A stretch of DNA of 64,000 nucleotides, taken from Alphaproteobacteria bacterium (lineage in GTDB: Bacteria; Pseudomonadota; Alphaproteobacteria; JAUHZY01). Below the pieces are notes generated by a model. That model made no database searches. It was not told where the DNA came from and was given only the letters and a program-made list of their open reading frames with translations. The stretch spans positions 248,001 to 312,000 of the forward strand of contig JAUHZY010000001.1 of the NCBI GenBank assembly GCA_030425825.1, in the 5' to 3' direction. Made by a program: the position numbers and the translations under genes. The stretch's first letter is position 1. Every line of letters starts with the position of its first letter. Positions 26,872 through 51,848 of this stretch are shown here, piece after piece.

Positions 26872-28563
26872 ATGCCGACACTAGACTTCAAAGGAAAACA
26901 GTTTGTTTATGCTCATCATTTGAGCGTGCCGTTTAAGCAGCTAGATATTGATGAAAAAAAATCTTTGCCTAAAGACGGTAAACCTTCACTGGATGATAAT
27001 CTGATTATTCATGGTGATAATCTGCATGCCCTAAAAGCCCTTTTGCCTAAATATGCTGGAAAGGTGAAGTGTATTTATATTGATCCGCCTTACAACACGG
27101 GCAATGAAGGATGGTGTTATAATGACAAAGTTAATGCGCCATTGATCAAAGAGTGGCTAAAAAAAGAGGCAAATCCAGTCGATAAAGAAGACTTGGAGCG
27201 TCATGACAAATGGCTGTGCATGATGTGGCCGCGCTTGCAGTTATTGCGGGAGCTGTTGAGTGATGACGGAGTGATTTTTGTCAGTATTGACGATAATGAG
27301 GTGCAAAATCTGAGATGTTTAATGGATGAGATATTTGATCAAAAGAATATGCTGGCCAATCTGGTTTGGAATTTAGGTACGGGAACAACTGCGGGTCATT
27401 TCACCCGTTCTCATGAGTACGTTCTTGCTTATGCAAAAAGAAAATCAAATTTGAGTAATTTCTTCTCTCCAGATGGAGGGAAGATCAGGCACGGCGCATT
27501 AAAGAGAATATCTAAGAAAAATCCAGCTTCGGTGATTAATTTTCCTGCTGGAGTAGAATTTGAAGGGGAGGATGCAGAGTTTTCGGGCATTATTGGAGGC
27601 AGTGAAATACAAACTATTTTAGATGAAAAGATGACTTTTAAGGGTGGAAAGCTAGAGCAGCCAGTCAATATTGAGGCTGGTTGGGCAATGAAAGACTTGA
27701 TTGTTAAATGGCTGAGGGGTGAAGATGTTGTAGATAGTAAGGGACAAAAGCTTGAAAAAATTTATTTTAATAAATCTGGTATTGTTTGTTATGAAAAAAG
27801 ACGAACCATTGTTAATCCCAAGACAGTTATTAGTGGTGTTGCGAACACTAAACATGGCTCATCAGAATTGTCAGAAATTCTTGATAAAAATGGGTTTGAT
27901 TATCCTAAACCTAGCAGCCTTGTTCAGTATTTAATTTATACCCTTACAGCCGATCATGAAGATGCTGTAATTTTGGACTCATTCGCTGGATCAGGAACTA
28001 CAGCTCACGCTGTTCTTGATCTTAACAAAAAAGATGGTGGTAATCGTAAATTCATCTTGGTGGAGTGTGAAGGTTATGCCAATGACATTACTGCCGAACG
28101 AGTGCGGCGTGTTATTAAGGGTGTGCCAGACGCTAAAGATGATGCCCTTAGAGAAGGACTTGGTGGGTCATTCACGTTTTGTGATTTAGGGCAGGAAATT
28201 AACATTGAGAACCTTCTTAAAGGTGAAAATCTACCAGAGCATGATGAGTTGGCACGGTATGCGTTTTATACCGCCACAGGTTTAACTCTGGATAATGTGT
28301 GGCAAGGAGCAGATTACTTCATCGGCGAAACTGAAAATTACCGTGTGCATTTGATTTATAAGCCTGATTTGCAATTCTTGCGCTCTGGCGACTCTGCTTT
28401 AAATATGCCGCTTGCCAAGTCAATATCGGCGGTACGAGACGGCACGGGTAAATCTGCACTGGTTTTTGCGACACATAAATTCATGGGACAAAAAGAGCTG
28501 ACGGATATGGGGATTACCTATTGCCAGTTGCCTTATGCAATTCACCGCGTCATGGGAGATTGA
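26872..28563 (+). CDS. mod: Type III restriction-modification methyltransferase (Mod)
   Basis: A 563-residue beta-class N6-adenine methyltransferase. Motif IV is DPPY in YIDPPYNTGNEG (about residue 65), followed by the variable target-recognition region (about 150-340). Motif I is FAGSGTTAHAVL (about 370), then KFILVECEGYANDITAERVRR. It methylates one strand of the target and specifies the site for Res. Downstream res begins 4 bases after the stop, so the two are co-translated. The specificity cannot be read from the sequence. Confidence 0.95.
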   Translation: MPTLDFKGKQFVYAHHLSVPFKQLDIDEKKSLPKDGKPSLDDNLIIHGDNLHALKALLPKYAGKVKCIYIDPPYNTGNEGWCYNDKVNAPLIKEWLKKEANPVDKEDLERHDKWLCMMWPRLQLLRELLSDDGVIFVSIDDNEVQNLRCLMDEIFDQKNMLANLVWNLGTGTTAGHFTRSHEYVLAYAKRKSNLSNFFSPDGGKIRHGALKRISKKNPASVINFPAGVEFEGEDAEFSGIIGGSEIQTILDEKMTFKGGKLEQPVNIEAGWAMKDLIVKWLRGEDVVDSKGQKLEKIYFNKSGIVCYEKRRTIVNPKTVISGVANTKHGSSELSEILDKNGFDYPKPSSLVQYLIYTLTADHEDAVILDSFAGSGTTAHAVLDLNKKDGGNRKFILVECEGYANDITAERVRRVIKGVPDAKDDALREGLGGSFTFCDLGQEINIENLLKGENLPEHDELARYAFYTATGLTLDNVWQGADYFIGETENYRVHLIYKPDLQFLRSGDSALNMPLAKSISAVRDGTGKSALVFATHKFMGQKELTDMGITYCQLPYAIHRVMGD

Positions 28564-28567
28564 ACGC

Positions 28568-31171
28568 ATGGAATTGAAAGACTATCAACGCCGTGTGATC
28601 GAACGTTATGATGATTATACACAAGCCCTATACGCCGAGCGACAGAAGGCAGAAAAGGCCCTCAAAGCCCTTGAAGAGGCAGGGGTAGACATTCCAGACG
28701 GCATAGGTGATTGGCCTAAGAACGCATGGAAAAAAAATGAGACCGTCTTGCCGCGTGTTAAAACCCAAATGGGCCTTAAAATTCCTGAATACGTACAACG
28801 TTATGATGCGAGAAAACGCTCGATTCCACATGTCTGTCTAAAAGTTCCAACGGGTGGGGGTAAAACTTTACTAGCAACAGAATGTGTTGGGCGTGTGCAG
28901 ACAGATTTTTTAAAACGCCAGACAGGACTGGTGCTTTGGGTTGTTCCAACTGTTCAAATCTATCGTCAAACATGGAAAGCGCTGGCCAATCGTGAGCATC
29001 CTTATCGCCAGACGTTGGAACGTGCCTCTGGCGGTCGTGTGAAGGTGCTGGAAAAGGATGATCCGTTTACCAAGTCAGACACTGAAAACTATTTATGTGT
29101 TATGTTGGTGCGGTTGGCCGCCACAAACCGCGCCAATAATAAGGATTTTTTAAAAATATTCCGAGATGCCGGAAAATACACTAGTTTTTTTCCTGAGCCT
29201 GATGATTTCACCGCCAATAATGATTTACTCAATGCTTATCCTGATCTTGAGACCAATGATTTGGGTGATGCAGGCGCGTTTGTAAGCGTTTCGGTTAAGC
29301 AAAGTCTTGTAAATACCTTGAAGATGTTACGCCCCGTTGTTGTGATTGATGAGGGCCATAAGGCTTACTCTGATAATACCCGTGACAGTTTAAATAACTT
29401 TAATCCGTCTTTTATCTTGGAACTGACCGCCACACCAAATTTCAAGCGGCATGTCAGCAATGTTTTGGTAGATGTGTCGGGCCTTGACCTGAAAGATGAA
29501 CAAATGATTAAGTTGCCGATCAATATTATCAATACAAAAAATGGTGATTGGCAAAATACTTTAACAATGGCACATGGTCGCCTGACAGAGTTGGCGAATA
29601 AGGCCCATGACTTGCAAGCAGAAGACGGACGCTATATCAGGCCAATTATGGTTGTGCGTGTTGAGCGTACAGGAAAAGACCAGCGCGACGGGCAGAAAAT
29701 TCATGCGCTAGATGCCCGAGATTATCTTATCGAGAGGCTTTCAGTCAAAGAAGAAGAGATACGCATAAAGTCATCGGAAAAAGATGAATTGGGCGACACA
29801 GACCTTTTTGATCCATTGTGTCCAGTCAAATACATCATCACTAAAGAGGCCTTGCAGGAAGGTTGGGATTGTTCTTTTGCCTATATCCTAGCCTTGCTTG
29901 ATAATACCACAGCCCGAACAGCCATGACACAAATGGTGGGTCGTGTTTTGCGTCAACCGGATGCTAGGTCAACCAGTATGGAAACTTTAAACCAATGTTA
30001 CGTCTTTTGCTATGATCAGGATGTCAGTGTAGCCGTTGATAATGTTCGCAAAGGTTTGGAAGAAGAGGGTATGACAGGGCTTTCCGAATTTGTGAAGGCA
30101 GAAGGCATGGGTGGCAATGCAGAGGGGCAAGGTGCAGAGTTGCGTTTGATTGCTCGTAGCGAAAAGTTTAAAGAGTTAAAAGTCTTCTTGCCAAAGGTCT
30201 TGCATAAAGAGGGTAAAGGCTGGCGTGATATAAATTATGACCGTGATATTCTAAGCCATATTCCTTGGCATGACCTGACTTTTGATATTGAACATTTTTT
30301 GGATGCTAAAGATGTACCCTTGACCACAGAAACAAGTGTCGACGTTGACTTGATCAATCAACAAGGCGAATTTGATCTAGTGACAAAAATACAAAGACAT
30401 GATGTTTGGGTTGAAAAGAAATTGGACTTGGCCTTTCTATCGCGTCCGCTGATGGATGTCATCCCCAACCCGTGGCAAGCCACACGTATATTGTTGAAAG
30501 CCATTGAAGACTTGAAAGGTAAGGAGCGAACCGAAGAGATGATTTATAATGGCCGATTGCATTTGCTAGATAGTATGAAACGTCATTTGAAGCATCGTGT
30601 GCATGAATGTTCGGAAGCTATATTTAGGAGCAAACTGAAAAGTGGTGATGTTGTTTTTCGACTTGTCACAAATGGCAATAAAGATTTGAACTTTCAAATT
30701 GCTCACGAGTTGAAGGTTATGGCGCGACAAAATGAACGTAAGTTGTTTAAAGAAAGCGGTGACAAGGTTGAGAATAGTCTTTTTGAAATGGTATTTGAAA
30801 AGGATTTGAACAATCTGGAAAAAGATTTTGCCTTGTATCTATCAGATAGTGAGGTCATTACGTGGTGGCACAGAATGGTTGCACGGCAAGATTACTCTTT
30901 GCAAGGGTGGCAAAGGAACAAGATTTATCCTGACTTTGTTGCATGTGCCAATAATGATCGCCTTCTGGTTTTGGAAACGAAAGGTCTTCAACTAAAGGGT
31001 AATGATGATACAGAATATAAAACACGCTTATTTGAGATGTTAACCCACTATCACAAAGAGGTCGTTGAGACAGGGGTCATCAGTCTTGCCTCTGATGATG
31101 AAAAACAAATTTCTTTACATATGTTGATGGAAGATGATTGGAAAGATAGAATTGCTGAAATACTTCATTAA
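28568..31171 (+). CDS. res: Type III restriction endonuclease subunit (Res)
   Basis: A start at the ATG in GAACGCATGGAATTG gives 867 residues. SF2 helicase motifs: Walker A PTGGGKTLLATE (about 105), DEGH in VVIDEGHKAYSD, LTATP, and QMVGRVLRQPD. The C-terminal nuclease has the PD-(D/E)xK pattern DFVACANN...VLETKG near residue 800. It translocates or diffuses on DNA with Mod and cuts when two unmodified sites meet. It appears intact, so the system may be active. Confidence 0.95.
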   Translation: MELKDYQRRVIERYDDYTQALYAERQKAEKALKALEEAGVDIPDGIGDWPKNAWKKNETVLPRVKTQMGLKIPEYVQRYDARKRSIPHVCLKVPTGGGKTLLATECVGRVQTDFLKRQTGLVLWVVPTVQIYRQTWKALANREHPYRQTLERASGGRVKVLEKDDPFTKSDTENYLCVMLVRLAATNRANNKDFLKIFRDAGKYTSFFPEPDDFTANNDLLNAYPDLETNDLGDAGAFVSVSVKQSLVNTLKMLRPVVVIDEGHKAYSDNTRDSLNNFNPSFILELTATPNFKRHVSNVLVDVSGLDLKDEQMIKLPINIINTKNGDWQNTLTMAHGRLTELANKAHDLQAEDGRYIRPIMVVRVERTGKDQRDGQKIHALDARDYLIERLSVKEEEIRIKSSEKDELGDTDLFDPLCPVKYIITKEALQEGWDCSFAYILALLDNTTARTAMTQMVGRVLRQPDARSTSMETLNQCYVFCYDQDVSVAVDNVRKGLEEEGMTGLSEFVKAEGMGGNAEGQGAELRLIARSEKFKELKVFLPKVLHKEGKGWRDINYDRDILSHIPWHDLTFDIEHFLDAKDVPLTTETSVDVDLINQQGEFDLVTKIQRHDVWVEKKLDLAFLSRPLMDVIPNPWQATRILLKAIEDLKGKERTEEMIYNGRLHLLDSMKRHLKHRVHECSEAIFRSKLKSGDVVFRLVTNGNKDLNFQIAHELKVMARQNERKLFKESGDKVENSLFEMVFEKDLNNLEKDFALYLSDSEVITWWHRMVARQDYSLQGWQRNKIYPDFVACANNDRLLVLETKGLQLKGNDDTEYKTRLFEMLTHYHKEVVETGVISLASDDEKQISLHMLMEDDWKDRIAEILH

Positions 31172-31230
31172 GATAATGGGGAGGGGTGCTTCAAAATGCA
31201 CATGAATACAAGAAGATAAGAGATGATAAT

Positions 31231-32154
31231 ATGACATTAAATCTTTCACAAACAGTGGCTGAGTTTTTAGAGAAAAATGCAGAGCAAAGATTTACCGCTA
31301 GGCAGATTGCAGAGTGGATATTTGCAACGTACCCAGACGAATGCCGTGAAAAGCAGAGCAGATCAACAGCAACCGTTAATCCCTTGGACAATGATTCAGC
31401 TGTTATTCAGCAGCTTGTTGCTGAGATCGGTTCACAGCGTCCTCGCCTGCAAAAGAAAAACCAAAATATCAAAACTACAGAGGGAAGACCGCGCAAATAT
31501 TATTACACGACACAAGAAGATATGGATGAGGTCAAAAATGCCGAAACAAAGGCTTCTGAACAAAAAGCTTATGTGAAAGAGCATGACCTTTACCCCCTTT
31601 TATCAGATTTTTTATGGTCAGAGTTGAATATTTATAGCAAGCGGATCGATGAGAAGCGTTCTCGTAACAGTCGTGGGCCTAATGGTAATCGTTGGCTTTA
31701 CCCTGACTTGGTGGGAATGGAAGATTTGAGTGCCGATTGGCATCAAGAGATAAAAGATTGTGTGAAGCAATATGCAGATAAAAAAACAAAACTTTGGTCC
31801 TTTGAAGTCAAGATTCTGATAAACCGTTCCAATGTTCGTGAGGTTTTCTTTCAAACGGTTAGTAATTCATCTTGGGCCAATTTTGGCTATCTTGTGGCCG
31901 GTGAAGTCGAGGGGGCAGATACCTTGAAAGAGTTAAGAATGCTGTCTGCTCTGCATGGTATTGGTTTTATCCGTTTGAATATAGATAACCCAGCGGAAAG
32001 CGAAATCATGATCCCGGCCAATGAGAAACAAGAGGTTGATTGGAATACAGCGAACCGCCTTGCCGAAGAAAACAGAGACTTTCTTGAATACGTGAAGTTA
32101 ATCAGGCATTTTTATCAAACAGGTGATGTGAAAGAGGGTGATTGGGATGTCTGA
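31231..32154 (+). CDS. HrgA-like (COG2958) protein with N-terminal HARE-HTH-type domain
   Basis: I prefer the ATG giving 307 residues (MTLNLSQTVAEFLEKNAEQR), as in the family. Residues 1-90 look like a HARE-type winged helix (FTARQIAEWIFATYPDECR, then GRPRKYYYT). The C-terminal part, from about 115, has LYPLLSDFLW, RWLYPDLVGMED, and LWSFEVKILINRS, a nuclease-like EVK pattern. COG2958/HrgA proteins are often next to restriction systems. It lies about 60 bases after res and overlaps the next gene by 8 bases. The role is unknown; an accessory nuclease or methylation sensor is inference. Confidence 0.7.
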   Translation: MTLNLSQTVAEFLEKNAEQRFTARQIAEWIFATYPDECREKQSRSTATVNPLDNDSAVIQQLVAEIGSQRPRLQKKNQNIKTTEGRPRKYYYTTQEDMDEVKNAETKASEQKAYVKEHDLYPLLSDFLWSELNIYSKRIDEKRSRNSRGPNGNRWLYPDLVGMEDLSADWHQEIKDCVKQYADKKTKLWSFEVKILINRSNVREVFFQTVSNSSWANFGYLVAGEVEGADTLKELRMLSALHGIGFIRLNIDNPAESEIMIPANEKQEVDWNTANRLAEENRDFLEYVKLIRHFYQTGDVKEGDWDV

Positions 32155-33175
32155 TGATAAAGAATATATTACCATGGGAGAGTTAGAAAAGAAGATCGAA
32201 GAGAAAAAACGGAAAACCAATGACCCTAAAAACATGGTCATGGTGAGAGGTGACCTTGGTGAAGTGGGGTGTGTTAAAGGTAATGCTGATGAGGAATTAA
32301 GACTTGATGGTGGGCATATTTCATTTCAAGGTCTAACATTCACCGGGAAGTTCAAAATAGATGTTGGGTCAGGAAGAATATCTTTTCTCGATTGCACATT
32401 TTCTAAGGTTGCCTTTGCCCAAGACTCTAATCTAAGAAGAACAGAGTTTAAGTCGTGCAATATGTACGACAGTGTTGTTTTTGATAATTGTAAACTTCAA
32501 TCTGCGAGATTTTATGGAAGAAGGGATAAGAATAGCCCTAATAATCTGACAAATATAAGTTTTGAGAAGTGTACGCTGCATTCAGCAAAATTTGTAAATC
32601 CAGAGAAGCCTGATGAGTTTGCTGAAAACCTTTCTACGAAGAGTTTTAAGAGTGCAGATCTAATGTCTTGTAATTTGCCATCCTATATGAATTTTGAGGC
32701 GTTGTTAAAGCGCCATGAGGACGCATCAAAAATTTGCAAAAATGTTCTGACCATTATGACATCATCTTTAGTTACAATATTACTTTCTATCGCAATTAAT
32801 TTTACATCTCAGCTGGCAGGCGAAGAGGGAAAAGCCACACTTAAATTATTTCTTTATGGCGATATTGATAATGCAGATGTATTCTTTGTTAGTGTCCTTT
32901 TCTATATGGTTTTCTTTTTTTTATACTTCATCAATACAGCGTCAATTGCCAAAGAGAAATATTTTGAGCTACCAGAGGTTTTTCCAGAAGGAACTGAAAG
33001 AATATCAGTGGTGTACCCTTGGATGTATAATTACTTTCTTGAGAAGGGGTATTGGTTTAAGTCACTCTTAGTGGGGGCAGTTTCTTTTGGTCTCCCGATT
33101 ATAACGATTGTTTTTTCTTTACTTGCATTAAAATGCCCAAATTACTTGAGACTGGCATTGAGTAATTTGTTTTAA
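32147..33175 (+). CDS. Pentapeptide-repeat membrane protein linked to the restriction operon
   Basis: A 342-residue protein. About residues 45-180 form degenerate pentapeptide repeats (ISFQGLTFTGKFKID, LRRTEFKSCNMYDSVVFDNC, ISFEKCTLHSAKF). The rest has three or four membrane helices (LTIMTSSLVTILLSIAINF, FFVSVLFYMVFFFLYFI, SLLVGAVSFGLPIITIVFS). Its start overlaps the HrgA-like gene, so it belongs to the operon. Pentapeptide proteins with membrane domains occur in defence loci; here it could be a back-up effector. That function is inferred. Confidence 0.75.
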   Translation: MSDDKEYITMGELEKKIEEKKRKTNDPKNMVMVRGDLGEVGCVKGNADEELRLDGGHISFQGLTFTGKFKIDVGSGRISFLDCTFSKVAFAQDSNLRRTEFKSCNMYDSVVFDNCKLQSARFYGRRDKNSPNNLTNISFEKCTLHSAKFVNPEKPDEFAENLSTKSFKSADLMSCNLPSYMNFEALLKRHEDASKICKNVLTIMTSSLVTILLSIAINFTSQLAGEEGKATLKLFLYGDIDNADVFFVSVLFYMVFFFLYFINTASIAKEKYFELPEVFPEGTERISVVYPWMYNYFLEKGYWFKSLLVGAVSFGLPIITIVFSLLALKCPNYLRLALSNLF

Positions 33176-33266
33176 ACGAAAATCGTTGTGCGGGTACATT
33201 TGTGGGTATAAAAATTAATTCACCTTTTAGCTTTTATTATATATCAATCTTTTAGTGTTTATTTAT

Positions 33267-33280
33267 GACTCCTGCCACCC
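33267..33280 (+). other. attR-like copy of the tRNA-Gln 3' end
   Basis: GACTCCTGCCACCC, 13 of 14 matching the tRNA copy at 22404. It lies about 90 bases past the last island gene. Confidence 0.55.
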
Positions 33281-33412
33281 AAAACAATCCCATAAAGTCT
33301 AAAAATTATAGTAAATACAACGGTTTCAAGCGTAATCTATCTGCTTGCGTCAAGTAAGGTCTGTTGACGTTTGGGGGTATTTTCTTATTTGTGGAAAGGA
33401 GATACCCTCAAA

Positions 33413-33550
33413 TTGAAACTTTCCGATATCAAATGTAAAAACGTTGTACCCACTGATAAGCCTTATAAACTGTCAGATGGGCAGGGCACGTATTTAGAGA
33501 TAAAACCAAAGGCAGAAAATATTGGCGCTTGCTAGTTTCCACAGTCTGAT
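33413..33550 (+). pseudogene. Frameshifted N-terminal remnant of a second P4-type integrase
   Basis: From a TTG, the frame reads LKLSDIKCKNVVPTDKPYKL then SDGQGTYLEIKPK, closely matching the N-terminus of the intact integrase at 22590 (MKLNDVKCKNAVAKDKRYKL). After KP the match moves to another frame (GRKYWRLLV, compare GRKYWRYRY) and then stops. A one-base frameshift and loss of everything after about 50 residues make it a dead fragment. It lies just past the attR-like copy, so an older related element used this site. Confidence 0.85.
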
Positions 33551-33791
33551 AGAGTCCAGAAACACTAGAAAAACCATTCAGCGTTGAAAGAAGAGGCGTC
33601 TCTAACAGGGCCTTTTGCAAATATTTTTCTAAATTGACGGGCTTATACCGTACAGCAATCACCCGCATTAAAAGAGGCAACACTCATCCAAAGCGTTTGG
33701 TATGCATCGAAATAAGTAGATGCCTTAAATGTCGATTTAGGTCAATGAGCATACGCATTTTATATGAGGACTTATTTTATCACTTTCTTAC
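33551..33791 (+). other. Gene-free stretch after the integrase remnant
   Basis: No convincing gene on either strand. It probably consists of decayed mobile DNA; a minus-strand ORF here is antisense to the remnant and lacks a recognisable domain. Confidence 0.35.
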
Positions 33792-33831
33792 TTGACACAG
33801 GCCTTTGTTGAGATTAATTATTAATTGTAGT

Positions 33832-33850
33832 GATAATAATTATTAATAAC
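33832..33850 (+). promoter_or_regulatory. Fur-like box upstream of hemP
   Basis: GATAATAATTATTAATAAC matches the classical 19-base Fur box GATAATGATAATCATTATC in 14 of 19 positions. TTGACA lies at 33792-33797. The centre AATAATTATT is a perfect palindrome. A very similar box occurs at 46972. It implies iron-dependent control of hemP and perhaps of the peroxiredoxin genes after it. Confidence 0.6.
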
Positions 33851-33861
33851 ATGGCTGATTG

Positions 33862-33984
33862 ATGATAAAACAAATTGAAGCAAAAGAGTTGTTTGACGGT
33901 GAATCAGTTGTTGTGATTGTTCATGGTGGCGAGCGTTATCAATTGCGTATCACAAAGAACGATAAGTTAATTTTAACAAAATAA
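33862..33984 (+). CDS. hemP: Hemin uptake protein HemP/HmuP
   Basis: A 40-residue protein (MIKQIEAKELFDGESVVVIV, then HGGERYQLRITKNDKLILTK). The HGGxxYxLRxTKxxKLILTK pattern is the HemP signature. HmuP is a small regulator/co-activator of heme-uptake genes in Bradyrhizobium. It starts 11 bases after the Fur-like box; the ribosome site is weak. No heme transporter is adjacent, which is unusual. Instead a peroxiredoxin gene follows 64 bases later. Confidence 0.88.
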   Translation: MIKQIEAKELFDGESVVVIVHGGERYQLRITKNDKLILTK

Positions 33985-34048
33985 ATCTAGCCAGCAAGCA
34001 ACGTTTAAGCGCAGCGAGCAAGCAAACTATGTAGATTAGGAGACTTCT

Positions 34049-34651
34049 ATGACGTTGCTTGTGGGTAAGACTGCGCCTGACTTTACATCTTTGGCGATTA
34101 TGCCAGATGACAGTTTTGAATCATCTTTCAACTTGACCAAGTATTTGAATGGTAAAATGGGCATTTTGTTCTTTTACGCGATGGACTTCTCTTACGTATG
34201 CCCAACAGAGCTGATTGCTATTGATAAGCGTGTTAATAGTTTTAAAGAGAGAAATGTTTTGCCTATAGCAATCAGTGTTGATTCTCATCTTTCGCATTTG
34301 CGTTGGAAAACAATCGCACCAGAGCGTGGTGGTATTGGCAAGGTTCAGTTTCCGCTGGTTTCTGACCTGACGCGACGTGTGTCACAAGGATATGACGTTC
34401 TTGTTAATGATTCTTTAAGCCTTCGCGCCACATTCCTTATCGATAAAATCGGCGTTGTTCGTCATCAATCTGTGAATGACCTGCCGATTGGTCGAAATAT
34501 AGATGAGATGCTGCGGACGATTGATGCGCTTCAACATCATGAAAAAACAGGTGAGGTTGCGCCAGCAGGGTGGGTTAAAGGTAAATCAGCCATGAAGCCA
34601 GACGAAGAAGGTGTTGAAAAATACTTGTCGCAATTTAAAACAGCTTTGTAG
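34049..34651 (+). CDS. Peroxiredoxin (AhpC/Prx1-type) lacking the resolving cysteine
   Basis: A 200-residue thioredoxin-fold peroxidase. The peroxidatic Cys is in FSYVCPTEL (about residue 51), with the Arg and the SVDSHLSHLRW loop as in 2-Cys enzymes. The C-terminal motif, normally GEVCPAGW, reads GEVAPAGW, so the resolving Cys is Ala; the family should then act as 1-Cys or use an outside thiol partner. AGGAGA precedes the start. It is followed 9 bases later by the Cys-repeat protein, which could supply thiols. That partnership is inferred. Confidence 0.9.
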   Translation: MTLLVGKTAPDFTSLAIMPDDSFESSFNLTKYLNGKMGILFFYAMDFSYVCPTELIAIDKRVNSFKERNVLPIAISVDSHLSHLRWKTIAPERGGIGKVQFPLVSDLTRRVSQGYDVLVNDSLSLRATFLIDKIGVVRHQSVNDLPIGRNIDEMLRTIDALQHHEKTGEVAPAGWVKGKSAMKPDEEGVEKYLSQFKTAL

Positions 34652-34660
34652 GAAACATTC

Positions 34661-37600
34661 ATGTCCGTACCAAAACTTACTTTTTTTAGTCAAGCAAAAG
34701 AAGTTCTGAACCACCTTTCTCCTGTTAAAAGAACAGATTCTTCTGATGAGGTTGAAATTCTTGGTGACAATAAATTTGGTAATTTCTTTTCAGAGAATAC
34801 CATCGACGAAAACTTTGGCAGCAGCGTCAAGCAAGCCTCTCAAAAGTCGGGTAATGGTGAAGGAGAGCTTGATGATGCGTCAAGCGATCAAGGTCAGCAG
34901 GACTTTGATCCACAATTCTTAGCACAGCTCGAGAATTTTGGCTTAGATGAAAATGGTGAAGAAGTTGATACGAAGCTGACTGTTAAGAAGCTACAAAATA
35001 TTGCTGAAGACAGCGCAGGGAAGTTTGTAGGTTTTCCGCCTGAAGTCGTTGATATGGAAAGCTTGCAAGATTATCTGAAAAAACTTGATGGGTTGGATGA
35101 AGATCGTCGTCTTGTTCAATTGATTATGATGTCTGGATTTTTACAGCAACAAGATCAGATGTCTAAAATGGTAGGCGCAAATCAACTGCTACAGTTCCAA
35201 CAACTTATGCAAACACTTATGATGATGATGATTCATCAAAGCGATCAAAAAATGGAAGATATTTTAGATCATATTTTGAAAAGTGATAACTTGAACAAGC
35301 TGCAAGATATCATGCAGCAATTATCACAAAATAACCCGCAATTTGATGAAATGTTGCAGCGCATGTTGCAATTGGTGACGCAGAACATGAATCCAGATGA
35401 CCTTCAGAAAATGCAGCAAATCTTTGATCAGTTGGCGCAAAAACTTTCTTTGCAGCCTATCGATCTTTTGAATTTGCAGAACTTAGAGCTGTATGGTGAG
35501 CATAATATTTTCATGGATCCGTCATTGCTGACAAATAATACAGAACAAAGCAATACAGTTGAGGGTGTGGACTGGCACTTTTTACTTATGCTTCAGCAAG
35601 GTTTGATGCAAACATCTGAGCTGATGCAAACAGATGAGTTGATGCAGCGATCTTTCCAACAAACGGCAGAGGCGCTTAACCATTTGCGCCAAATCGATAT
35701 GGCAAATATGGTGCAACAAGATCAAGTAAGCCTTAATTTAAATAACTTTGATCAATTACAGCAGGTTCTCAAAGACCTAATCCAAAACAATAATGACCCT
35801 CAAAAAGTTAATGAAATCCTGCAAGACATGATGAAAAACACATCAGTTGTCGAGGATATGATGACCTCGATTGATATGATGAGACAAGCGCTTCCAGAGG
35901 CTTTTGATTCTTCCTTAACAGTTGAAGGTTTAATGGTAAAGAGTGTTGATCAAGCGTTGGAAAATACGATTCAAACACTTGATCAAACACACGAGCTTGT
36001 GTTGAAGTTTGAGACAATGGGTAGGCCCACCTTAGAGAGTGTTGACCCCACGGTTGTTGTGTTAAATGCCGTTAATAACCTCAGAAATCAAACCATTGAT
36101 GTTGCAGCATCTGACAAGTCTGCAGCGCAAAAAATGGACATGATAGAGAAAATAGGGCGACGTTTAGATAAGCTGGCAGGAAAAGAAGATTTAAAGGTCG
36201 AAGTGGCAAAGCTTCTTGAAATTGCGGCTGATAAGATTGTTTTGGTTGATATTCAACCCAAAGAGGCGAATCCTGAGCTTTACACAAAAGACATCCTCAA
36301 GGTGGCGACACCAACAGTTGAAGAGTTAAAGCAACAGGTTCTTGCAAATTATCAGCCTGAAGACGCACAAGTACTTACGCAATCATTTAACCCAATTCAG
36401 CAAGAAATGAGATCACTGACAAGTGTTGAAAATGTGACTGTTCATATTAATGCACAAGCTGATTTGATAGCAGCATCAACAAATGAAGGCTTTAAGCTTG
36501 ACCAACTTACCTTAACTGGAGGCGCTAATATTATAGAAATGGCAACGGCATTAGAGCATGTTTCACAGTTTGCACAAGGCTCAACACAAAAAATGCCTAC
36601 AGAAACAGCAAAGGAAAGCTTTAATCAAGCAAAGAATAATAATACGCATCAGGAAGGTGCAAAAGTTATTCAGCTTGATGCGTTTATTGAAGCACGTCCA
36701 ACGGTTGACCCTGTAGTTTCGAGTGCGCTTTCTCCAACATTGCAAACAAGTACAATTGAGTTGGGAGAGACAAAGATTTCAATTACAACGCCAACACTTC
36801 AAGCACAGACAGAACAATCTTCTAAGCCTATTATGTCAGCTTCTGAAAAGCTGGCAGCGACACTTGCAAAAACAAGTCAGACAAATGAAGTTTCAACTGT
36901 CAAAACAGTCGAGCAAGTCACGCAAAACACTCAAAGAAGCACCGATACCACAAAAATGGCAAGTGTTACAGCAGCTGATATTGCCGCCGCAACGGTGGAA
37001 GCTGGTGCGAAAGAAGTCATAGAAATAGCGATGGAAGAATCAACCGAACAACAAAAATTTGAAAATGAACAGAAAGTTGAAAATACTAATACAGGAACGA
37101 CAAACTATATCATTACCCCTGACGTTCAAACTCAAATAAATGAGATTGCACAAGAGCAGCAGAATGCGCCTCAAAAAGAGGATGTAACAAGTAAGAATGT
37201 TGCTGAAGAAACCCATGAAGAGCTCAATGAAATATTGAAGCAAGTTGGCGTTGAAGCGCCGAGTGAAGATGCCGAATATAAAGAACCTCAAAAAGAAGTC
37301 GTTCTTCAAGACAAGATGTGTGAAGGCTGCTCCGGCTGTGGAACGGCAAGTGCGAAATGTGGTCAAGCGGCTGCATCTGAAGAGCAGATGGCTGGGCTTG
37401 ATGATGGTGAATTAGATGACTTGCTGGGTGGTGATTATCAAGAAGTCGAAACTGAGATAGATCTCCAAGACAAGATGTGTGAAGGCTGTGCTGGATGTGG
37501 TACGGCAAGTGCGAAATGTGGTCAAGCAGCTGCTTCTGAAGAGCAGATGGCTGGACTTGATGATGGTGACTTAAGTGGTTTGTTGGATGAAGACTATCAA

Positions 37601-37936
37601 GAAACCCAACCAGAAACAGAAATGGAGGATAAGATGTGTAATGGATGTGCCGGCTGTGGAACGGCAAGTGCGAAATGTGGTCAAGCAGCTGCTTCTGAGA
37701 CGCAAATGGCTGGACTGAACGATCAAGACTTAGACGCTTTGCTTAATTATAACGCCGTTGAGACACAGGCAGAAAGTTTGGTGGCGTCGCCTGCTTACGA
37801 AGACGTTCATTCGCAATCAGTTATCAATCATGAGAACGAAGGAGTTCAAGTGGAAGGGATAGGAGAACTTGCAGTTGAGGGAGCTGCAATGGAACATTCT
37901 TCTTCTCGCGTTAATGTGCATCAAAAACAATATTAA
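34661..37936 (+). CDS. 1091-residue Gln/Met-rich protein with three Cys-rich repeats
   Basis: A very long soluble protein starting 9 bases after the peroxiredoxin gene. Residues about 150-320 are Gln/Met-rich and helical (LLQFQQLMQTLMMMMIHQSD), the middle is long amphipathic helix and Ala/Thr/Glu-rich linker. The C-terminus (about residues 880-1045) has three copies of a 53-residue unit, each with KMC(E/N)GC(S/A)GCGTASAKCGQ followed by an acidic Asp/Leu stretch. Each unit has four Cys as C-x2-C-x2-C-x6-C, suited to metal, Fe-S or thiol chemistry. No signal peptide. I recognise no family. Confidence 0.75.
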   Translation: MSVPKLTFFSQAKEVLNHLSPVKRTDSSDEVEILGDNKFGNFFSENTIDENFGSSVKQASQKSGNGEGELDDASSDQGQQDFDPQFLAQLENFGLDENGEEVDTKLTVKKLQNIAEDSAGKFVGFPPEVVDMESLQDYLKKLDGLDEDRRLVQLIMMSGFLQQQDQMSKMVGANQLLQFQQLMQTLMMMMIHQSDQKMEDILDHILKSDNLNKLQDIMQQLSQNNPQFDEMLQRMLQLVTQNMNPDDLQKMQQIFDQLAQKLSLQPIDLLNLQNLELYGEHNIFMDPSLLTNNTEQSNTVEGVDWHFLLMLQQGLMQTSELMQTDELMQRSFQQTAEALNHLRQIDMANMVQQDQVSLNLNNFDQLQQVLKDLIQNNNDPQKVNEILQDMMKNTSVVEDMMTSIDMMRQALPEAFDSSLTVEGLMVKSVDQALENTIQTLDQTHELVLKFETMGRPTLESVDPTVVVLNAVNNLRNQTIDVAASDKSAAQKMDMIEKIGRRLDKLAGKEDLKVEVAKLLEIAADKIVLVDIQPKEANPELYTKDILKVATPTVEELKQQVLANYQPEDAQVLTQSFNPIQQEMRSLTSVENVTVHINAQADLIAASTNEGFKLDQLTLTGGANIIEMATALEHVSQFAQGSTQKMPTETAKESFNQAKNNNTHQEGAKVIQLDAFIEARPTVDPVVSSALSPTLQTSTIELGETKISITTPTLQAQTEQSSKPIMSASEKLAATLAKTSQTNEVSTVKTVEQVTQNTQRSTDTTKMASVTAADIAAATVEAGAKEVIEIAMEESTEQQKFENEQKVENTNTGTTNYIITPDVQTQINEIAQEQQNAPQKEDVTSKNVAEETHEELNEILKQVGVEAPSEDAEYKEPQKEVVLQDKMCEGCSGCGTASAKCGQAAASEEQMAGLDDGELDDLLGGDYQEVETEIDLQDKMCEGCAGCGTASAKCGQAAASEEQMAGLDDGDLSGLLDEDYQETQPETEMEDKMCNGCAGCGTASAKCGQAAASETQMAGLNDQDLDALLNYNAVETQAESLVASPAYEDVHSQSVINHENEGVQVEGIGELAVEGAAMEHSSSRVNVHQKQY
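37310..37786 (+). repeat. Three 159-bp coding repeats encoding Cys-rich units
   Basis: The units start at 37310, 37469 and 37628, an exact 159-base period (53 codons). The Cys motif is near-identical in all three, while the acidic part is more variable. Confidence 0.85.
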
Positions 37937-49022: not shown

Positions 49023-49127
49023 TTTGTCAACAATTTCTCTTTTTCCGAGTGTTTTGTGTTGCTTCATATGCTGTAATCATCTATACAGTGCGTAAAATAT
49101 AAACATAGGCATAAAAGAGGAAAAAAG

Positions 49128-51848
49128 ATGAGTTGGGACCGCCAATTTCGTCTTCCTGAACTTGTAGAAGCATTGAAAGATGCTTTGATAGGTAAAAAGG
49201 TTGAGGTGAAAAGCCGAGGTAAAAATAAAAAGCTAGGCGCGTTTTTTGAGAAGCAGCTTCGCCTTCTTTTTCTTGCGCGCACACTTGGTGAAGATCCAAC
49301 AACAATTATCCGCAGAAAAAAAATCATTGAACGGGTTAAACAGGTTGGTGATCAGTTCAAAATTAAAGAGCAGCATGTAAGTCAATCTGTTGGACACTAT
49401 AGGCGTCTTTCAATCACACATCAAACACAGAAAAACCTTCGCAAACTTGCTAAGCATATGGGGGAGAATGTCTATCTTGCTGGGGCGAATCCAAATATCA
49501 GGTTTGCTTTTAAAAAATATCAAGATGCCATTCCTCAGAATATGCCAATTATTCTGGGGAAGGGGGACTTGCACGCTGCTCATGAGTTTTTCAGCCAGTA
49601 TTTAAATCGCTATAAGGCTTCTCAACAAGCACAATTAAACCTTCCCCCTTTGGTGCTTATTGACCGCGATGGGTATTGGCAGCCTTTCTTGGATCTTTTA
49701 GGGTTAAGCGTCAATGATCACGATGAAAGGGCCAATGCTTATGTTGTTTCTTCACCTAGAGCAGCAGAACAAATCGCCAACCAATATAATAATAGTTTAA
49801 AGCTTGTTCGCCCGAAACAAAAACCGCAAATGCCAAATGTGCCCAAAGGATCAGTGATTTTCTTTTGCACAACGAATCCAGAGAAATTGGAACAAAACCA
49901 ACGTATTTTCAGCCATCATAATGCGGATATTAAATTCTTATCTATCGACCATCTTGTTGATGTCATGCCAGACATTGATGAAATTAATAAAAACTACTCT
50001 GGTAATGCTGAATTAAAGCTCCAATTTATTTTAGATTATTTTATTGATAATCAAGAGCTTGTTGTGGGGGTTTGTGAGCATTACAAAATTACGCCAGCGC
50101 AGCTCTTTTTTGTATCAGAAGATCAGGGCGGATACTTTGAAGATGAACGTATCATGATGCATGAAGTCTTCCAAGACGCAAGGCACCTGATGATTGATCA
50201 TACCTCTTTCCATCCAGGTCCAGAATTAAAGCCCGTCATAGATGCATTGAATGGACACAAAGAGTTCATTGCAAAAATCAAAAAGTCAATTCAATCCATA
50301 GAGCAATCTGGTGAAACGGTTAATAAAGTATTTCAACAAACAAGTATTTTTATGTTTTCTTCTGTTGAGCGAGGGGCGCCCATTTTATCGATGACAGGAT
50401 ATACCGAGTGTTCTTTTCATGACGAGTTTCCAATTCCTAAAACAGGAAAAGTTTATTTTAAAGACTTTTTGTCGCCAAATAAATCAACACGCACAATTTC
50501 TGAGCTTGAGATCGCAGCAGAGAAGCATCCAAATACTAAAAAGCATACGAAATACCTTTGTGAACAAAGTCACAATGCAAGGGCAATAAAAACTTTTATG
50601 CAGTATTGTAGTGTGCCAACAATGCAAAAAAGTGTTGAGAGAGTGACAAGTCAAGACTTTACGGTCGGTCTTGTTGCTGCAGATGCAGCAAAGCTAATGC
50701 AAAACTTCCCAGGTATTATTGAGCAATTAAATGAATCTGGTATTCATATAAACGTTTTCGATGGCAATTTAGACAATGCAACGTCTTTGTTCGACTTCAT
50801 GAAAACAGTCGACCAGGTAACAATTTTACCAAGTATTGAGGTGGATGATGCGAAGCCTTCTTTGTATAAGGCTATTTTGGCAGCTTCAATTCTAGTGGGC
50901 GTCCAAATTCAGGATGAGTCGATGAAAGGTAAAAACTTGACCTTTGTAGAAGGCTATGAAAATGGTTGGCAGTTTTTTCATCAGGATATGGTTGACCACC
51001 TGCATGCAAACACATTTCTTTTGCCACAAAAAACGAGATATTTGTACGACCAGGTTGATGTGGAAAGTTATTTAGATCATATCCAAAAAATAAAAATGCA
51101 ATATGTCCCGCCATATCTTCGGTCTATAGCGACTCCTGCATTTGATTTGTCTTATGACACATCGCGGGCGGCGTTTATCGCAGGTTCTGCAACAACCGAA
51201 GCTTTGGGTTTCCAAAAAACAGCGAGCGCACTTGCCTACAAACTGGCAATGTCAGGACATTTCGATATTATTCTGAATGGCGCAGGTGGGAAAGGTGCTA
51301 TGGGCCCCATGGTTGAAGGGGTGCGTCAAGCACAAAAAGAAGGTGCCAAGATTGATATTCATGGTATTACGACCCCACAACTTGCTAAAAAAGAGCAATG
51401 TGATTACGCACTCTATAATGATCAAGTGCACTTGGTAGACAATATCGAAGTGCGTGAAGAGAAGTTAACACAACCAAAGTTTCATTACATCGTTGATGGG
51501 GGTATGGGAACTGTGAAAGAAGCGTTGAAATCTGCAAAGTCAGACAGCTATACCGTTATTGTGAATACGGAGCTTAATATGGAGACTTATAAAGGCGGTA
51601 CTTACAGCCCGATCATTAACGCGCTGAAGCTAAAAGGGATGGAGAGTGTCTTTGTTGTTGATAGTGTTGATAGCGCTGTCGAGTTGACCGATAGGTTAAA
51701 GAATCAAGAGGCCAAAATTAAAAGGCTTGAGCAAGGCAACCTTAAGCCTGCTAAACCTACAGACGATCTTTCTGATGCCTTTAAGCTGCCTGTCAGTGAG
51801 CAGGACAATACGCCAAAAGCACCAAATCAGCAAAAATCACGGAATTAA
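49128..51848 (+). CDS. Fusion protein: degenerate LOG-like, Ham1-like, LOG-like domains
   Basis: A 906-residue protein. After a helical N-terminus, residues about 113-225 look like a LOG nucleotide-hydrolase domain without the full catalytic motif: ILGKGDLHAAHEF in place of PGGxGTxxE, then LVLIDRDGYWQPFLDLL and VVSSPRAAEQIANQ. From about 243 a Ham1/ITPase-like domain begins: VIFFCTTNPEKLEQNQRIF fits the TxNxxKxxE motif, then ILDYF and FFVSEDQGGYF. From about 680 a second LOG-like domain: NGAGGKGAMGPMVEGVRQA and VDGGMGTVKEAL, close to the catalytic motif. It could clean up or sense nucleotides. The C-terminal tail is disordered. Confidence 0.65.
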   Translation: MSWDRQFRLPELVEALKDALIGKKVEVKSRGKNKKLGAFFEKQLRLLFLARTLGEDPTTIIRRKKIIERVKQVGDQFKIKEQHVSQSVGHYRRLSITHQTQKNLRKLAKHMGENVYLAGANPNIRFAFKKYQDAIPQNMPIILGKGDLHAAHEFFSQYLNRYKASQQAQLNLPPLVLIDRDGYWQPFLDLLGLSVNDHDERANAYVVSSPRAAEQIANQYNNSLKLVRPKQKPQMPNVPKGSVIFFCTTNPEKLEQNQRIFSHHNADIKFLSIDHLVDVMPDIDEINKNYSGNAELKLQFILDYFIDNQELVVGVCEHYKITPAQLFFVSEDQGGYFEDERIMMHEVFQDARHLMIDHTSFHPGPELKPVIDALNGHKEFIAKIKKSIQSIEQSGETVNKVFQQTSIFMFSSVERGAPILSMTGYTECSFHDEFPIPKTGKVYFKDFLSPNKSTRTISELEIAAEKHPNTKKHTKYLCEQSHNARAIKTFMQYCSVPTMQKSVERVTSQDFTVGLVAADAAKLMQNFPGIIEQLNESGIHINVFDGNLDNATSLFDFMKTVDQVTILPSIEVDDAKPSLYKAILAASILVGVQIQDESMKGKNLTFVEGYENGWQFFHQDMVDHLHANTFLLPQKTRYLYDQVDVESYLDHIQKIKMQYVPPYLRSIATPAFDLSYDTSRAAFIAGSATTEALGFQKTASALAYKLAMSGHFDIILNGAGGKGAMGPMVEGVRQAQKEGAKIDIHGITTPQLAKKEQCDYALYNDQVHLVDNIEVREEKLTQPKFHYIVDGGMGTVKEALKSAKSDSYTVIVNTELNMETYKGGTYSPIINALKLKGMESVFVVDSVDSAVELTDRLKNQEAKIKRLEQGNLKPAKPTDDLSDAFKLPVSEQDNTPKAPNQQKSRN

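Follow-up and report, generated by a model that had tools for sequence, protein, structure and literature searches.

A four-module alphaproteobacterial protein that joins a Ham1/ITPase-like domain to LOG-like domains

LOG phosphoribohydrolases (PF03641, TIGR00730; structures 5its/5zbl for CgLOG and 5zbk for PaLOG) are single-domain proteins of about 190 amino acids. They dimerise, and the pocket forms where the two subunits meet; in C. glutamicum LOG, Arg99 and Glu122 have been proposed as the catalytic residues, the GG-GT loop binds phosphate, and Glu125 and Trp129 come from the partner subunit (PMC4979012). The PpnN (YgdH) nucleosidase holds the LOG catalytic core within a larger protein, and the Ham1/RdgB/ITPA family (PF01725, TIGR00042), which includes the ITPases, consists of pyrophosphatases for non-canonical NTPs. 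In the sources that we searched, the ITPase pyrophosphatase step and the LOG phosphoribohydrolase step were found in separate enzymes only. The main survey of SLOG proteins is reportedly that of Burroughs et al. 2015. Our search of the open-access literature found no paper combining the Ham1/ITPase and LOG families, in agreement with the original prediction, which knew of no described protein of this kind, and an earlier mention elsewhere is possible.

The window analysed here, a stretch of 64,000 nucleotides from an alphaproteobacterial contig, encodes a protein that joins the two families in one chain. The fusion gene (49128..51848, on the + strand, as are all of its features given below) is a single unbroken open reading frame of 906 amino acids that runs from an ATG at 49128 to a TAA ending at 51848, with a Shine–Dalgarno-like AGAGG (49116..49120) 7 nt 5′ of the ATG. 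Its codon-usage score of -3.92 lies within the range of the neighbouring genes (-3.81 to -3.95), with scores of -4.56 and -4.77 in the two other frames. A FemAB/GNAT-type gene lies upstream on the same strand, separated by a gap of about 105 nt, and the 3′ end abuts a convergent phosphomannomutase gene. The reading frame, its translation, its codon usage and the presence of homologues in many genomes identify 49128-51848 as a genuine gene encoding a four-module protein, and the identical domain order in many genomes rules out an assembly chimera or accidental fusion. Elsewhere in the window, an open reading frame of 1091 amino acids (34661-37936) without any Pfam match lies a few kilobases from a ResIII gene resembling a type III restriction subunit (28535-31171), and 28535-37936 is a possible defence region.

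Profile comparison and an AlphaFold2 model show that the protein consists of four modules: a half LOG-like domain, a Ham1/ITPase domain, a degenerate LOG-like domain and a LOG domain whose catalytic residues are retained. The original prediction had described a LOG/Ham1/LOG triple-domain protein; the order stands, and an extra degenerate LOG-like domain at residues ~508-662 brings the number of modules to four. In Pfam, Ham1p_like (PF01725) matched residues 244-306 at 23.3 bits, above its gathering cut-off of 22.5 (28.6 bits when the Ham1 segment was scored alone), and Lysine_decarbox (LOG, PF03641) matched residues 725-801 at 25.6 bits, against a gathering cut-off of 27 that homologues clearly exceed (for example, with 50 and 67.5 bits). 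Weak Pfam and NCBIfam matches to Stevor, PduT and similar models fell below their cut-offs and were discarded. Profile–profile comparison (hhalign) of segments of the family alignment with canonical LOG and Ham1 alignments from related genomes gave 96.6% for residues 90-235 against LOG, covering the C-terminal half of LOG only, 97.4-97.6% (E ~1e-11) for residues 238-505 against full-length Ham1, 96.4% for residues 470-668 against the C-terminal half of LOG and 99.8% for residues 668-870 against LOG. Cross-controls with mismatched pairings of segment and family all gave less than 1%.

Module 1 (residues ~95-222; 49410..49793) is a half-size degenerate LOG-like domain in which the catalytic loop is replaced by GKGDLHAAHEF (~144-154), and it is absent from about a third of the homologues; when its profile was compared with PDB sequences, the five best matches were all LOG structures (best, 5wq3, E 4.5e-4). 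Module 2 (residues ~240-503; 49845..50636) is Ham1/ITPase-like by Pfam, hhalign and Foldseek. Module 3 (residues ~508-662; 50649..51113), a degenerate LOG-like domain that retains a helix with SxxVxxQ (Q593 in 31 of 33 aligned sequences), also matched the N-terminal half of a Verrucomicrobial tandem-LOG protein (hhalign, 98.9%). Module 4 (residues ~668-868; 51129..51731) is the LOG domain with catalytic residues, found by both hhalign and Foldseek. The GGxGTxxE loop is lost in modules 1 and 3, and degeneration is limited to these two.

The AlphaFold2 model, built from a 32-row alignment, has a mean pLDDT of 82.5 and a pTM of 0.85. A Foldseek search of the PDB with this single model returned crystal structures of LOG proteins as well as of ITPases, all at a probability of 1.00, the matches being assigned to domains through the profile results and alignment lengths, not through printed residue ranges. 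The LOG match was to 5zbk, a LOG–AMP complex (E 6.2e-7, TM 0.74 on the target), and indicates a Rossmann-type LOG fold; the ITPase matches were to human ITPA (4f95, E 1.1e-6), Coxiella HAM1 (3tqu) and E. coli RdgB (1k7k). An ITPase-like fold for the middle region, as originally predicted, is thus borne out, as is a LOG-like fold for the C-terminal outer part. A fold search with the N-terminal part alone returned nothing significant, so its identification as a LOG-derived half domain rests on sequence profiles. Of the two LOG folds expected, the first is indeed degenerate and the last nearly intact, the N-terminal one corresponding only to the C-terminal half of the LOG fold.

Conservation was assessed mainly in an alignment of 33 rows, one of them the window protein, with around 20% identity; four sequences that are incomplete or highly divergent (L009, L065, L070 and L072) were kept out of it but are included in the earlier 32-row alignment. 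In the Ham1-like module, the T-x-N-x-x-K motif (T248, N250 and K253; 49869..49886) has K253 in 33/33 rows, T or S at position 248 in 33/33 and N250 in 12/33. E285, N293 and K297 of the motif E285...GN293AxxK297 (49980..50018) are each found in 33/33 rows, as is D332 (50121..50123), which aligns to the second D of the RdgB ADDSG motif. The counts in the 32-row alignment are K253 31/31, E285 32/32, N293 30/32, K297 32/32, D332 32/32 and E366 30/32. Conserved residues of the RdgB from the same genome line up with E285, with the N..K pair and with D332, and in the RdgB/ITPA family the counterparts of K253, E285, N293, K297 and D332 are metal- or phosphate-binding and catalytic-type residues. The motifs named in the original prediction are present (T248-x-N250-x-x-K253, D790-GGMGTVKE798 and the degenerate loop of module 1); its longer TxNxxKxxE reading holds for TxNxxK but not for a KxxE directly after K253, the ITPase-type glutamate being E285. 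Together, profiles, structure model and residue conservation rule out a chance likeness of short motifs.

The fusion protein shares with Ham1/RdgB/ITPA proteins a common fold and the TxNxxK, E, NAxxK and D residues, whereas it differs from them in its large inserts, in a family-specific PGxE (363-366; 50214..50225; E366 in 33/33 rows) in place of PGxYSAR, and in the ITPase base-recognition motif SHR, which is not kept and where most family members have [HY]-S-x-x-A. It scored 12.3 bits against the RdgB equivalog TIGR00042, far below the cut-off of 145. The original prediction had suggested that such a protein may serve in nucleotide damage cleaning or in a nucleotide second-messenger pathway. 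The changed motifs bear on the first of these, in which the protein would be an ordinary house-cleaning enzyme that clears purine NTPs after their deamination or modification (ITP, XTP) and then breaks down IMP or XMP. The Ham1 fold with its catalytic-type residues would suit that role, as would the deaminase neighbours of relatives described below, but the changed SHR site speaks against the usual cleaning of ITP and XTP, as does a separate canonical RdgB (218 bits) in the same genome, and we regard such a role as quite improbable. Since that genome has both this RdgB and a canonical LOG gene elsewhere, the fusion protein is not their replacement.

Module 4 shares with LOG phosphoribohydrolases the fold, the GGxGTxxE loop and the catalytic Arg and Glu. 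A GAGGKGAMG loop (718-726; 51279..51305) is the counterpart of GGGxxGLMG, with G718 in 33/33 rows and M725 in 31/33. The proposed catalytic residues Arg99 and Glu122 of the C. glutamicum enzyme (PMC4979012) have as their equivalents R776 (51453..51455; 33/33) and E798, the latter lying in DGGMGTVKE (790-798; 51495..51521), the counterpart of PGGxGTxxE. E756, G792, G794 and E798 are invariant (33/33 each) and T795 is found in 30/33 rows, whereas the leading proline of PGGxGTxxE is D790 in the window protein; the 32-row alignment gave E756 31/31, R776 31/32, and G792, G794 and E798 31/31. The window protein had no match to TIGR00730 (cut-off 96.35 bits), against which the best full-length homologue scanned reached 75 bits.

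Where LOG phosphoribohydrolases pair two single-domain subunits, the fusion protein has one competent-looking and two degenerate LOG domains in a single chain. Judged by their distance from the conserved Glu and Gln, the positions of Glu125 and Trp129 would fall on S587 and G591 in module 3, so that these prenyl-pocket residues have no counterparts at the corresponding places and a prenyl-adenine pocket is unlikely; the alignment thus does not place the protein among cytokinin-activating LOG enzymes. A free protein of about 355 amino acids (L080-L152, mostly Verrucomicrobia) has a degenerate N-terminal half and an intact C-terminal half. It corresponds to modules 3 and 4 without the Ham1 domain and without the N-terminal module, and is a natural pseudo-dimer whose existence fits a tandem pseudo-dimer in the fusion protein.

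Loss of the SHR arginine means that the Ham1 half might bind a nucleotide without hydrolysing it. If so, the protein could be a regulated nucleosidase in which catalysis falls to the C-terminal LOG domain alone and the Ham1-like and LOG-like modules are allosteric nucleotide (NTP or alarmone) sensors, comparable to PpnN under (p)ppGpp; the replacement of PGxYSAR by PGxE and the presence of PpnN structures among the Foldseek matches are in keeping with this. Unlike the fusion protein, PpnN has no Ham1 domain, and homologues score far under the PpnN equivalog cut-off (NF038390, 450 bits; no match for the window protein, and 26.8 bits for the best family member scanned). The occurrence of K253, E285, N293, K297 and D332 in all 33 diverged rows would be unexpected for a pure binding domain, and these residues argue for an active NTP-to-base enzyme over a pure sensor. 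A regulated nucleosidase therefore seems to us unlikely.

Both sets of active-site residues are conserved, and the simplest account of two invariant active sites on a fast-changing chain is that both work. We propose that the protein is a bifunctional nucleotide-dismantling enzyme that would convert a particular NTP to PPi, ribose-5-phosphate and a free base, and we put the chances of this reading at about even. The Ham1-like domain would first strip pyrophosphate from the NTP to give NMP and PPi, and the C-terminal LOG domain, coupled to it in the same chain, would then cut the N-glycosidic bond of the NMP to release the base and ribose-5-phosphate. Module 4 would pair with the degenerate module 3 inside the chain to form a pseudo-dimer, module 3 appearing well placed as the partner subunit of the LOG pocket, and modules 1 and 3, both derived from LOG, would serve as non-catalytic partners in completing or shaping the active site. 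With the SHR motif and the cytokinin pocket lost, the substrate is probably neither ITP or XTP nor a cytokinin nucleotide. The divergence of the window protein, its LOG score just under the cut-off, the substitution of D790 for proline, the loss of the SHR arginine and the lack of the Micavibrio deaminase in the window genome count against a two-step enzyme.

The family comprises more than 30 homologues, spread over several lineages of Alphaproteobacteria and found mainly in another order of the class, the Micavibrio order. A contig scan with the single window sequence gave no match and other single-sequence searches gave few relatives; the large Micavibrio-order family was reached by searching outward from one homologue. 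A profile of Ham1 plus module 3 matched in 36 of 142 Micavibrio-order genomes; three of these hits are short and probably represent ordinary RdgB proteins, and with two genomes added from another search the total is about 35. Six further full-length members (L011, L115, L116, L133, L145 and L149) come from other alphaproteobacterial lineages. The window protein is one of the family's most divergent members, and because of its long branch the tree gives it no firm placement.

In the Micavibrio order, lpd adjoins the fusion gene on its downstream side in 21 loci, and some loci have a 2-oxoacid dehydrogenase acyltransferase (sucB-like) gene upstream. In 21 of the 35 genomes of this order that carry the fusion gene, spread over 13 genera, a cytidine/deoxycytidylate-type deaminase gene is located no more than about 3.5 kb away from it; in several of the others the fusion gene is at a contig end. 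The deaminase, of about 320 amino acids (L060:6390-7361 and relatives), has invariant HAE and PCxxC motifs. It is commoner overall than the fusion gene, occurring in 97 of the 142 genomes, and because these genomes share ancestry, the count represents one conserved neighbourhood and not independent events. In a second clade (L011, L115, L145 and L149), the immediate upstream neighbour in 4/4 loci is miaA, named by eye, which encodes tRNA dimethylallyltransferase. In the window genome, neither the lpd/deaminase nor the miaA arrangement is present, and the Micavibrio deaminase has no close copy there. The neighbouring genes suggest a pathway, not a substrate, and in the Micavibrio relatives that pathway would probably include the neighbouring deaminase.

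Several other genes were seen beside members of the family. A second, small deaminase is near the fusion gene in 6 loci, and a PfkB-like kinase, named by eye, in 4. In genome G032, a 437-amino-acid protein with two LOG domains (L009:1613-2923, - strand; Pfam LOG, E 1.3e-45) lies directly upstream of the homologue. Near the G135 homologue is a 1575-amino-acid reading frame (L012:1794-6521, - strand) with, by eye, metallo-beta-lactamase/RNase J-like and exonuclease-like parts, and a 727-amino-acid exoribonuclease-like gene (L012:6999-9182, + strand) lies directly upstream of the fusion gene there.

Fast sequence change around fixed active sites, together with patchy presence in about 35 of 142 Micavibrio-order genomes, might also be expected of a nucleotide-targeting conflict protein, for defence or prey-killing, that depletes an NTP pool once activated, akin to SLOG conflict systems; SLOG domains are mentioned in papers on Thoeris (PMC7272460). 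PADLOC gave no match to a known anti-phage system. The phages, plasmids and viral contigs searched held no family member, which tells against a phage or plasmid origin. These absences speak against a conflict protein, and the genes occupy fixed chromosomal sites (with lpd as the downstream neighbour in 21 loci and miaA as the upstream neighbour in 4/4) rather than mobile defence islands, leaving this reading only a slight probability in our judgement. A viral fold search returned HAM1-containing and LOG viral proteins, with none of those listed named as having both.

Each domain of the fusion protein is of a known kind; what is new is that they are combined, that degenerate partners are built into the chain and that the specificity motifs have changed. 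The fusion itself, the preservation of both active sites while the rest of the chain changes almost freely, and the altered base-recognition parts point to an unrecognised nucleotide substrate for the proposed two-step enzyme. In its fullest form, which we hold tentatively and think somewhat likelier to be wrong than right, the proposal is that one polypeptide would convert a specific non-ITP NTP to free base, ribose-5-phosphate and PPi, with two inactive domains of LOG origin serving as its internal partner subunits and, in the Micavibrio order, a dedicated deaminase, and would represent a route of nucleotide clearing or salvage not known before. The Micavibrio order includes bacteria that feed on other bacteria, and the link to this order raises the question of how such cells handle unusual nucleotides, whether their own or derived from prey.
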